From Selenomonadales bacterium (GTDB lineage Bacteria; Bacillota; Negativicutes; Sporomusales; UBA7701): DNA of 64,000 nucleotides. The notes below the pieces were generated by a model. The model ran no database searches, had not been told where the DNA came from, and worked only from the letters and a program-made list of their open reading frames with translations. Below are positions 50,912 to 55,672 of this stretch, piece after piece. Each line of letters begins with the position of its first letter. Position 1 is the stretch's first letter. Both the position numbers and the translations under genes were made by a program. Where the stretch lies: NCBI GenBank assembly GCA_018434945.1, contig JAHDOI010000035.1, positions 62,001-126,000 of the forward strand, in the 5' to 3' direction.

Positions 50912-51985
50912 TCAAAGGCAGCGGCCCGCGCGTTCGCTCCACGCCGCGTCAACAATCGCATGCTTTTCGAGCTCTTCCACCACATACAGGCTGCCTCCGG
51001 CCCGCTCGGCCAGCTGAGTGAGAAAACTGCGGTGAGGTTTTAGGCCGATACAGGCAAACCCGTAGCCTGATAACCGGATCGAATCCGCCGCCTCCAAAGC
51101 GTCGGTCAGCGGATCGCGGGAGTGTTCGGGTACAGTCGGGATGCCGTCGGTAATAAGGATTATCAGAGGATTGCGCACATTAGCCTCGCGCAGGTAGGTC
51201 TGGCAAGTCGTCAATGCGCCCGCCAGGGGAGTCGACCCTAACGACATTATCCCACGCAGATTGTTCTCCACCTCATGCCAGTCGCGTGTCAACGGCTGCA
51301 CCAGTTTGGCCGAATCCTCCTGGAAAGCGATGATCGCAAGGCGGTCCGGCGTGGACAGCAGCAGGTGTCTGGCAAGAAACTTGGCCGCCCTGAGCCTTTG
51401 CCCCGTCATGCTTGCGCTGGCATCGACAAGCAGGCATATCTCAGCCTTCTTACGGCGTTTCCGCACGAATTCCCGCAGATCGGCAGCAGTTATTTCCAGG
51501 CCGCAGCGCGCCATGTCAAGGGACCGTCTCGCGGCCGCGTTAACCGTCTCCGCAACGGCCAGTTCCCCGCCCGGCCCGCTCCCGTCGCGCGGCTTAAGCT
51601 GTTTCGGCCCGAAACCGCCCTGCCCCTCTTCCGCCATCAGCTTGCTGCGTCCCGGGCGCCAGACTGGAGGGCGGAAAAGCCTGAACGCCCGTCGCAGATA
51701 CGCCTCTATCTCCGGCAGATGCCTGTCGAGATAAGACCTTAAACCCTTCCCGTACTCGGTTATACGGACCTTTCCGCCTTCTACGGCCACGATACCCTGG
51801 CGTTCCATCCGCCTCAGCGCCTGTTCGCCGCTTCCCCGCCGCGCCAGCGACTGCAGCAGCTTTTGCTCCCCCGCACCGCCTTCAGTCTCGGCGAGGACAT
51901 CCCTCACATCCTGAGCGGTATCGAATTCGTCGGCCAAATCGGTAATATCCTGGAGATACTGGTGCCGCTGCGCCGACTCCGACAT
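50912..51985 (-). CDS. VWA-domain protein (magnesium-chelatase D-like C-terminal part)
   Basis: 357 residues. The N-terminal third is helical, with a winged-helix-like segment (QALRRMERQGIVAVEGGKVRITE). The VWA domain begins near residue 183 with the MIDAS motif LLVDASASMTG, then STPLAGALTTC (second Thr) and ILITDGIPTVPEH (third Asp). BchD/CobT/ViaA-like partners of AAA+ ATPases have this design. The ATG has AAGGG five bases upstream but overlaps the preceding gene by 82 bases, so one longer protein is possible. Confidence 0.8.
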   Translation of the reverse strand: MSESAQRHQYLQDITDLADEFDTAQDVRDVLAETEGGAGEQKLLQSLARRGSGEQALRRMERQGIVAVEGGKVRITEYGKGLRSYLDRHLPEIEAYLRRAFRLFRPPVWRPGRSKLMAEEGQGGFGPKQLKPRDGSGPGGELAVAETVNAAARRSLDMARCGLEITAADLREFVRKRRKKAEICLLVDASASMTGQRLRAAKFLARHLLLSTPDRLAIIAFQEDSAKLVQPLTRDWHEVENNLRGIMSLGSTPLAGALTTCQTYLREANVRNPLIILITDGIPTVPEHSRDPLTDALEAADSIRLSGYGFACIGLKPHRSFLTQLAERAGGSLYVVEELEKHAIVDAAWSERAGRCL

Positions 51986-52671
51986 CCCGGCCCTTTATCG
52001 CGCAGGAACGAGTCCGTCTGGTCGCAATAAGGGGAGAGGTCGCCGCCTTTTCCTCCGCCGCGGCCATGGATAATCTTTTCGTTGCGTCTCAATTCGAGCC
52101 CCGCCTCGCGGATAGCTTCCTCTGCCGCCACAACGAGGTAAAACAGCACGGCGATATGCTCGACTGGAAACATGGCGGTTATGTGTACGTGATTTTCGTG
52201 GGCCCGCCGCAAAGAGGGCTTCTGTCCGTAATTGAGACTTCCCGTGATCCTGCCGCCGCCCGTTCCCGTCTGTATGTCGATAAAATCGGCGCTTATCGTA
52301 TCGCCGGCGGATCTGAATCCGAAATGGTGGCTGGCGTAGATGTTGCAGTGGAAGTCATATATCTCGACAGCCTGGCGCAGTCTGGCCGCCACCTGGCGAT
52401 GATCGGCCTGCCCGCATTGGTGGAAGACATCGAGGTGAAAAACTTCGTCAGCGTTCTGCCGGCTGTAAAAAGCCTTCCCGGCATCGACGTTTGTCAGAAT
52501 TGTAACAGCCTCGGGTATTGCGGCCTCGACGGTGTGCATCTTCCGGCTTACCACTGTACTCTGACCGATCCTCGCTCCCCTGTTTTCCCGGATCATGGCC
52601 TGCAAAAGCGCGACCGGCCTGTCGAGTTCGGCGTAGAAATTTACGTTGTAGTCGAGTTTCGTCTCATACAC
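51904..52671 (-). CDS. Unknown protein encoded between the chelatase-like ATPase and VWA genes
   Basis: 255 residues, not recognised. N-terminus YETKLDYNVNFYAELDRPVALL, a middle part with several histidines (NIYASHHFGFRS, HENHVHITAMFPVEH), an alpha helix VLFYLVVAAEEAIREAGLEL, then a Gly-rich HGRGGGKGGDLSPYC. The last 27 residues come from bases shared with the VWA gene and look atypical, so the natural end may be near DSFLRDKG. GTG start overlaps the ATPase stop by eight bases. No metal site can be assigned from the histidines. Confidence 0.65.
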   Translation of the reverse strand: MYETKLDYNVNFYAELDRPVALLQAMIRENRGARIGQSTVVSRKMHTVEAAIPEAVTILTNVDAGKAFYSRQNADEVFHLDVFHQCGQADHRQVAARLRQAVEIYDFHCNIYASHHFGFRSAGDTISADFIDIQTGTGGGRITGSLNYGQKPSLRRAHENHVHITAMFPVEHIAVLFYLVVAAEEAIREAGLELRRNEKIIHGRGGGKGGDLSPYCDQTDSFLRDKGPGCRSRRSGTSISRILPIWPTNSIPLRM

Positions 52672-53996
52672 GACGGGTGCCGTCCTCGCCGCTAACGTAT
52701 TTTTCCGCCGGCAATTCCGCCAACGGCACGGCCGTGCGAGGCGGGGCGACGATATTGCATTGCGCGGGATCGGCGATCGCGTTAGCCGCCGACGCCGCTT
52801 CCCCGCCCGTCTGTCCCTGCCTGTCGCCGAGCCCGGCAGCGGCTTCGCGTCTTGTTCGCGACCCCAGCCGCCGTTTTAGTTCGGCCCACCAATTCCCCCA
52901 CCGCGAAGGCGCTCCGCTTGCTTCGGCCGTCTCAGCCGTTGTCATGTCCTGCGGCTTGCCGGGCTCGACGGCCTGCGCCCTGGTCACAGAATTGCTGCCG
53001 ACAGCCTGCAAATGCTTGAGAATACCAGCCAGCGTAGCGTTATCGGTACGGTGTCCCAGAACCATCGGCGCCACCAGCACGACATCCTCGACCAATATCT
53101 TGCGCCGGCCTGCCTGGACAGCCGCCAAGCGGGCCGCAGTCTCCAGCCCTTCTATGGCCCGCAGGCTTTCGAGATTGAAATCTACGTAAATCGCCGCCAG
53201 TATCGCGCGCAGTTCCTCGTCGACAGCCACACTTCTGAAGTCTCCCAGCTGAAAACCTGCCGCGGTAGGCCCGGGCTGCCTCGCATCTTCACGCTGGGCG
53301 AGCATCGCCGCAACCGCCCGGTAATCTCCCGGCCTGCCCATATTCACCACCATATCGAACCTGTCGGCCAGCTGTCTGCGCACCTGGGCCAGCGCTCCCG
53401 GCTCTTCGTCCGGGTTCGACGCCGCCCATACCGTCACCTCGACCGGCATCTCCACGACCGGCAGCCCAGTCTCCTCAACCTGCACCCTGCCGGGCTTCGT
53501 CCCCATCACATCAAGCAGAACATCGGCCAGCTCAGGTCCCGTGTCGGCCAGGCGGTTGATTTCATCGATAAAAACGACCCCGCGGTGCGCCTGGAGGATG
53601 GTGCCCGGCAGCAGAGCGGCCGCCGGATTGTGACTGTCGACAAGCCGGCCAAGGTCGATGCTGCCTAATACGGTGCCAACTTTCGCCGACTGAGAAATCT
53701 CCAGAAACGGGCACGGCACTATTTCCCGGCCGATCCGGTCGATTTCCGCCGCGTCGAGCCCTTTTGTGCTCCGGGCAATGCGGCCAGGCCGGGTGACAAT
53801 TGTAGATGCAGCCTCGAACCCGGACGATCGGCGGCAGATGTTTGGCCGCAGCCCGCAGAATAGTAGTCTTGCCCGTACCCCTTAGACCTTCCGCGTGGAT
53901 ATGGAAGGGATGGCGGCTGGTAAGCGCCGCCGCCGATAGCTCTACGGCCCTGAACAAATCACTGTTGCCGTTGTGACGAATCAGCCGGTTGTACAT
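52664..53996 (-). pseudogene. Magnesium-chelatase I-like AAA+ ATPase, broken by a +1 frame change
   Basis: Two overlapping frames make one protein of about 443 residues. The first (from 53996) has Walker A GLRGTGKTT and the BchI-like CIYNCHPAWPHCPEHK. The second has ISQSAKVGTVLGSIDLGRLV, LLPGTILQAHRGVVFIDEINRL (Walker B) and AASNPDEEPGAL. They join if one A of AAAA at 53762-53765 is skipped. Possibilities are a true mutation, a sequencing error in the homopolymer, or +1 frameshifting at AAA-AGG. The C-terminal 120 residues are low-complexity and variable. Family: BchI/ChlI, MoxR relatives. No BchH/CobN-type subunit is near. Confidence 0.8.
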
Positions 53997-54152
53997 TTTC
54001 TCTCTCCCTCCCGCCCATTTGTATTATTGTAACCCGCACACCCCGCCCCTACCCGGAGCAGAGCATGAAAATAGACGGCCCGCAGCGCGCTCCGCCTATC
54101 TTTCAGCCTGACCGGACGCATTTCCCGCTGCCGGCTGAGCCAGGCAGCGTCA

Positions 54153-54656: not shown

Positions 54657-55672
54657 TTATTGCTGATTACCCCCGTTTTTATGTACTGCGTACGCCGTAT
54701 AGACGATAAACACGGCCGTCGCCGCCGCGGTCCAGGCCATAACCAGCAGAACCGCATCATAGGGCAGAAAAGTCGTCAGGTAAACTAGCGCTCCGGCGGC
54801 AGCCACCGCCCTCCTTGAAGTCATTCCTGTACAACAGGCCACGTGGCGCCCGTTTACCACCATCGCCGGCACCATCGTCGTGGCGAAAGTGCAGAACAGA
54901 ACGCCGGCGAAAAAAGCCCCCCTATCGGTCCGAAAACGTTTGCAGCGGCTGCCGTAAGTGCCATCGGGCCGACCGAGCCGGCGGCGATCACTATGTACGC
55001 CATAACAATCGTCAATGCGCCTTCGACGAGTTTAGCGGCCACGGTTAGCCAAACGGCCCGGGTGCCCCGTCTGGCCAGGCAGCTGGCCGTTTCCGCCGCC
55101 AGTGCGGGCCTCATCCCGCCGGCGTTGTATCCGAACAGCGCCATAACCAGCGGCCAGTCCGGTTCCGCCTGCGGCAACGGTAGTGGTGACGGACCGGTCC
55201 CTCCGGATGAAAAAAATAGGACGACGATGGCGGGAACCAGCAACAGGGCGCAATAATTGGCGAATATCAGCACCTCCGTCATAAAGCCGGCGGCAATTAC
55301 CGTAAATAGGACCAGACAGAGGGGCGCCGCCACCTCCAGCGGCAACCCGCTGAGGTCACACACCAGCAAGGCGGCGAAATAACCGCCGGTCAGGGCGCTG
55401 GCCGGAACGGAAATGCCCATGGTGATGACGGCGAATAATCGCTTGACGCGTGTCCCGAACAGCCGGCGAACGACAACCGCCAGTTCGTTGCCGGTGCGAA
55501 CGCCGATCCAGGCGGCAAGCCCGGTCAGTCCTGCGCCGAACACGAAGTAAGCAAGGATAATAGTGATAAATATCCCCGTCCCCGTCCTGGAGGCTGCGTC
55601 CGGAACCACGCCGGCATTGTCGCCGGCAATATGGACGATCGCCAGCGACAGTGCCGGCAGAATTATCCACAT
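54657..55672 (-). pseudogene. YkvI-like/APC-type membrane permease, broken by a frame change
   Basis: The frame from 55672 encodes about 250 residues of hydrophobic helices (FVFGAGLTGLAAWIGVR, MGISVPASALTGGYFA, FGYNAGGMRPALAAE) then hits a stop soon after NVFGPIGG. Moving back one base at the run GGGGGGCTTTTTT (plus 54910-54922) restores AFFAGVLFCTFATT and the last three helices to the stop at 54657, for about 338 residues. Assigned to YkvI-like permeases by helix pattern and length only; substrate unknown. Either one lost base or an assembly error. Confidence 0.7.

Follow-up and report, generated by a model that had tools for sequence, protein, structure and literature searches.

The locus described here lies on the minus strand of a 64,000-nucleotide stretch of DNA (the window) from a Selenomonadales bacterium, and it consists of two genes, each split by a single-base frameshift. 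Gene 1 encodes a BchI-class AAA+ ATPase of ~440 aa, and gene 2 encodes a protein of ~585 aa in which a new N-terminal domain is joined to a VWA domain whose MIDAS is complete. The first-pass annotation had read three genes here and, for the window taken by itself, it was faithful to the letters: there are minus-strand ORFs for an ATPase (52664-53719), a middle protein (51904-52671) and a VWA protein (50912-51985), and they overlap by 8 and 82 bases. Once relatives are compared, the three become two. The ATPase ORF begins past its own Walker A, and the missing N-terminus (MYNRLIRHNG...GLRGTGKTT...CIYNCHPAWPHCPEH) is found in an ORF of another frame, 53562-53996; the middle and VWA ORFs likewise occupy different frames in the window. 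In tblastn comparisons with 33 related loci, both ATPase pieces fall in one frame, as do the middle and VWA pieces, and the genes extracted from intact relatives encode an ATPase of 431-485 aa and a fused middle-plus-VWA protein of 530-588 aa, with a usual overlap of a few nucleotides. DNA alignment with the closest relative used (83% identity) places an extra A at ~53765 and a missing G at ~51994; both single-base breaks are absent at the intact related loci. The window lacks one G at ~51994, and the 82-base overlap is therefore a frameshift artefact or a lesion; it lends no support to the coupled expression once read from it. A cassette of three genes with a separate middle protein fits the ORF layout of the window only, but every intact relative encodes the middle and VWA parts in a single ORF, and we give that reading next to no chance.

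Table 1. Features of the two-gene locus and of the DNA just upstream, in window coordinates.
Feature	Position	Strand	Remark
Degenerate -35, GGGTA	54050-54054	-	15 nt further up from the -10
SigmaF-type -10 element, GGTTACAATA	54025..54034	-	ATPase ATG lies 38 nt downstream
ATPase gene, N-terminal part with Walker A (GLRGTGKTT) and Cys motif (CIYNCHPAWPHCPEH)	53766..53996	-	One frame with the next part in relatives
Frameshift 1: one extra A, CACAAAAGGG vs CACAAAGG in a same-genus relative	53762..53765	-	DNA alignment
Remaining AAA+ core of the ATPase gene (Walker B FIDEINR, AASNPDEEPG, RRQLADRFD), with lid and conserved tail APPRTAVPLAELP	52664..53761	-	
His-rich domain at the N-terminus of the VWA protein (earlier "middle protein"), ~225 aa	51995..52671	-	No family match
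Frameshift 2: one G missing, GATAAAGGGCC vs GAGAAAGGGGCC in relative	51994	-	Separates N-domain from VWA
Linker, then VWA domain carrying the complete MIDAS (DxSxS, T, D)	50912..51991	-	Same protein as the N-domain

Two broken genes side by side may mean a locus that has recently died in this genome or a pair of sequencing errors. Upstream of the pair, also on the minus strand (54660-55672), is a gene for a transporter-like conserved membrane protein (~337 aa in relatives, which keep the same gene order; no match in Pfam or NCBIfam), and it too is frameshifted in this strain, at ~54930. That the pair and this transporter have decayed together and are without function in this genome is, to our minds, a coin-toss, and it would be compatible with the explanation that we prefer for the family as a whole. 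Three frame breaks fall inside 3 kb (the transporter at ~54930, the ATPase at 53765 and the VWA protein at 51994), no window-attributable breaks appear in the other syntenic genes checked (~20 kb), and unique substitutions are about twice as many as in the sister species in the N-domain plus VWA (39 vs 20) and in the transporter (22 vs 9), with RecJ showing a smaller excess (61 vs 41). Yet every family-invariant residue is intact in the window copy, and both the ATPase and the VWA part are broken by indels of one base within short homopolymer runs, in a draft of 100 contigs, much as sequencing errors would do. One might also imagine that the split frames are no accident at all: conserved frameshifting is used by chlD genes (PMC9227772), and programmed ribosomal frameshifting could yield full-length products in the same way here. 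The intact relatives, however, read straight through, with no break at either site in any of them, and we consider this highly improbable.

The ATPase matches the Mg-chelatase and AAA lid families in Pfam and, always below cut-off, TIGR02442, TIGR02030 and TIGR02031: an intact same-genus copy scores 124 bits against the 779 demanded by TIGR02442, and scores for TIGR02030, the ChlI equivalog, are 86-118 bits against 467. Compared as a profile with the PDB, it finds ChlI structures only (8osf, 6l8d, 1g8p). The BchI-like motifs recognised at first reading are confirmed, but the Walker A sits upstream of the ORF start used then. The Walker A, Walker B and Arg finger of the ChlI-type AAA+ core are all present and invariant or nearly so in 41 ATPases from many families, where Walker A, FIDEINR, AASNPDEPG, RxQLxDRFD and C-x3-C-x6-C-x2-H are conserved to the same degree; the Cys3His site, CxYNCxPxxPHCPxH, is invariant. 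One family (f95; genomes G266, G291 and G425) has a high-scoring ATPase and no detectable N-domain, and its partner may have been replaced.

The N-terminal domain of gene 2 is new, in the sense that no library we searched recognises it: Pfam, NCBIfam, PHROGs and the PDB gave no match, whether to a chelatase, to a MoxR-associated family or to anything else, and to that extent the "middle protein" deserves its early description as unrecognised. The residues invariant in 34 divergent N-domains are S42, H46, D63, G65, H79, D81, H84, G138, G140, H161, H163 and E184, and eight of these positions—five His, two Asp and one Glu (H46, D63, H79, D81, H84, H161, H163, E184)—make a set that suggests a metal or catalytic site. 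Because only four sequences were usable, the AlphaFold models of the domain are poor (pLDDT 46 and 44 in two runs); they hint at a beta-alpha-beta-beta-alpha core, for which ferredoxin-like folds are the best but weak matches, below a meaningful level (top hits of E 0.027 in Foldseek and of Z 6.4 in VIA, the latter over residues 74-204). The VWA half is more familiar. It aligns with the C-terminal third of TIGR02442 (~406-641) at 103-111 bits against that 779-bit cut-off, and it scores 54-64 bits against the 500 of TIGR02031, the Mg-chelatase D subunit, whose AAA-like N-terminal half has no counterpart in gene 2, an unrelated domain standing there instead. The full MIDAS reported at the outset (DxSxS, T and D) is indeed complete, and none of 24 relatives departs from D417xSxS, T481 or D509. 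At one locus of a near-complete genome (L028 in G019), the ATPase is intact and the VWA domain of its partner is cut short.

How widespread is such a pair? In a sample of 398 genomes of the phylum, the N-domain was found in 116 and the ATPase in 116, both in 111 and either in 121. The two genes do stay together in relatives, and without a large chelatase subunit, the lack of which the first-pass annotation had noted at this locus. The pair is present in ~29% of the sampled genomes, usually as a single copy, and its AAA+ gene adjoins a VWA gene with intact MIDAS, as in the NorQD-like two-component machines. Of the 43 loci inspected, 21, some of them in distant classes, have both secD/secF and recJ/relA within ~10 kb of the pair, which argues that the pair is old and largely vertically inherited; it has often been lost, the ancient order secDF–pair–recJ–relA has often been kept, and it is not a mobile cassette. 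The neighbours are these housekeeping genes in half of the loci and variable ones elsewhere, and therefore the context gives no target; no target gene linked to the pair was found in the loci inspected. PADLOC found no defence system, the N-domain had no match in phage records or viral contigs, and matches in plasmids were only to the C-terminal VWA part, at coverage of 40% or less. The pair is real and widespread, an old AAA+/VWA machine that is encoded by two genes and found in Negativicutes as well as in other classes of the phylum, and it has no name in the libraries searched.

The company that the pair keeps is with spores. SpoIVA is a spore-specific mother-cell protein, and in a sample of 60 relatives (30 carriers of the pair and 30 non-carriers), it is encoded by 29 of 30 carriers and 13 of 30 non-carriers (p 8e-6, the tree being ignored). 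In the phylum sample, the figures are 112 of 116 carriers and 224 of 282 non-carriers (p 3e-6, again ignoring the tree); the four carriers without SpoIVA are assemblies in several contigs, with completeness of 61-97%. The spore-formers that have the pair cluster on the tree, and thus these p values overstate independence. Few relatives other than spore-formers have the pair, but two thirds of the genomes with SpoIVA do without it, and therefore it does not belong to the core genes of sporulation. We did not find the pair in the main text of the papers examined on C. difficile and on a minimal sporulation set, and the literature that we searched describes no BchI/VWA spore system; we know of no AAA+/VWA machine with a tie to sporulation.

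The DNA upstream of the ATPase points in the same direction. An element of the form GGNNANAHTA is conserved there, and the B. subtilis sigmaF consensus is GYWTA-N15-GGNNANAHTR. The pattern that we tested, G[ACT][AT]T[AGT]-N14-16-GGNNANAHTR, follows that B. subtilis consensus. In C. difficile, the sigmaF and sigmaG consensus sequences are reported to be very similar to those of B. subtilis, and an upstream G in the -10 to mark sigmaF promoters (PMC3789822). The pattern stands upstream of 17 of 26 Negativicutes ATPase copies (one per genome but two in G057) and of 8 of 217 conserved neighbouring genes, the controls coming from the same genomes and loci (p 4e-14, an optimistic value, for the element was noticed by eye before the test). 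As for genes of known allegiance, spoIVA is a sigmaE gene and gpr a known forespore gene. None of 27 spoIVA genes and none of 30 SASP genes has the sigmaF-type pattern, which gpr shows in 23 of 27 cases when one -10 position is relaxed and in 3 of 27 when the pattern is applied strictly; the sigmaG form precedes 9 of 30 SASP genes and no ATPase. Upstream of the ATPase, sigmaE and sigmaG patterns gave no convincing match, and the sigmaF-type pattern was found in none of 18 copies from distant classes. It is kept across different genomic contexts (loci L042, L046, L048, L050 and L051). The window copy has the -10 only, which is common to all five examined species of its genus, and in this genus the -35 is degenerate. 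As predicted from these promoters, the pair is probably expressed in the forespore in Negativicutes, by way of sigmaF or an overlapping sigmaG.

Two other accounts of the pair have to be weighed. Characterised AAA+/VWA pairs—NorQD, CbbQO and CoxDE—mature vegetative enzymes (PMC13036017, PMC4240915), and on those precedents, we might be looking at a MoxR/VWA-like or chelatase-like chaperone for a vegetative metalloenzyme, one whose link to spores reflects shared ancestry and whose sigmaF-type promoter is one of several. In its favour, ancient vertical inheritance can mimic functional linkage, and copies from distant classes show no sigmaF-type promoter. But the promoter is kept in varied contexts and is rare upstream of neighbouring genes, and the pair is associated neither with CODH, whose maturation was one candidate role (54 of 116 carriers vs 107 of 282 non-carriers; p 0.12), nor with CobN; we consider the vegetative chaperone possible but doubtful. 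The other account makes the two proteins orphan I and D subunits that serve a CobN large chelatase encoded elsewhere. Both align best with TIGR02442, the "putative cobaltochelatase," and although it had rightly been noted that no BchH or CobN gene lies in the inspected neighbourhood, the genome does carry one CobN, on another contig and with I and D genes of its own. Next to that CobN are a TIGR02442 protein of full length (813 bits) and another I-like gene, and CobN is therefore already served. The pair's proteins, meanwhile, fall far under the family cut-off (103-124 vs 779 bits), and the linkage to or co-occurrence with CobN that characterises TIGR02442 is missing: 18 of 30 carriers have no CobN (12 of 30 have it, against 5 of 30 non-carriers among the 60 genomes; p 0.08), and one genome without the pair (G016) gave seven matches to CobN. 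A CobN partnership is largely refuted and, we believe, very unlikely. Up to seven CobN-type matches per genome were seen in G016 and other Negativicutes, several of them split or with stops.

What, then, might the machine be doing? Building metal cofactors is what AAA+/VWA machines are known for, and our best explanation, to which we would give an even chance, is that this is an ancient machine of that kind whose His-rich head probably handles metal and whose genes are probably expressed under sigmaF/sigmaG in the forespore of Negativicutes. We judge it to be a variant of the machines for metal insertion or remodelling, probably one that acts in the forespore, although the metal handling, the remodelling and the forespore as the site of action are things that we infer. 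SigmaF (or an overlapping sigmaG) would turn the pair on in the forespore in Negativicutes; the BchI-class ATPase ring would turn or pull its VWA partner in the manner of NorQD or ChlID; and the motion so driven would act on or through the His-rich head, which would probably bind metal or perform metal-dependent chemistry on a target. In NorQD, the AAA+ spiral rotates the VWA partner, which has been proposed to hold its target by the MIDAS and N-terminal domain during iron insertion (PMC13036017), and by analogy, the head may bind target or metal.

The known systems each resemble the pair in part. TIGR02442, a fused BchI-VWA protein that partners CobN, is the best profile match of both halves (ATPase 31-350, VWA ~406-641) and has a Cys-rich stretch past Walker A similar to that of the pair's ATPase, but the pair is two genes, its VWA half has a new domain at the N-terminus, its scores lie far below cut-off and it shows no linkage to CobN. 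Mg-chelatase ChlI/ChlD (BchI/BchD) shares the BchI-class AAA+ core and the VWA partner with MIDAS, whereas the pair goes without ChlH and its VWA partner has a His-rich domain rather than the D-type N-terminal half. Like the pair, NorQD, CbbQO and CoxDE combine an AAA+ ring with a VWA protein that has its own N-terminal domain, in two genes, and they insert metals or remodel without a large chelatase subunit (PMC13036017, PMC4240915); unlike theirs, its ATPase is of BchI type by sequence, its N-domain is unrelated by sequence search and its distribution is linked to spores. With the forespore sigmaF/sigmaG regulons it shares a promoter form that resembles the gpr promoter of the same genomes, but its own regulation is predicted only. 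If our explanation holds, an ATP-driven step of metal handling or remodelling would be added to forespore development, one absent from the B. subtilis-centred picture, and a pair that the searched family libraries do not name would gain a testable function.

Nature seems to have provided a ready experiment on the purpose of the motor. In three genomes of two genera (G018, G024 and G027; loci L048, L050 and L051), the AAA+ core of the ATPase has gone by in-frame deletion, which joins residues 1-40 to 361-434 in two of them and 1-19 to ~350-434 in the third, and the partner has no VWA domain; its N-domain remains. The head domain, the promoter and the ATPase tail are all kept, and none of the three promoters departs from the pattern (GTATG or GCATG-N14-GGGAACAATA). 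Between the two genomes with a deletion junction in common, the N-domain has dN 0.023, dS 0.128 and omega 0.18 (dN 0.035 and dS 0.171 for the mini-ATPase), and from that omega, purifying selection appears to have continued after loss of the motor. All of this points to the N-domain and the terminal segments of the ATPase as the functional core. A bolder proposal, and one that we rate as unlikely, is that the developing spore has in the His-rich head a new enzyme that depends on metal, or a new metal carrier, which a dedicated BchI/VWA motor normally drives but which can work without it. In another family (f40, loci L078-L080), a single ATPase is followed by two to three tandem, diverged copies of the N-domain/VWA gene, as if the motor served several heads.
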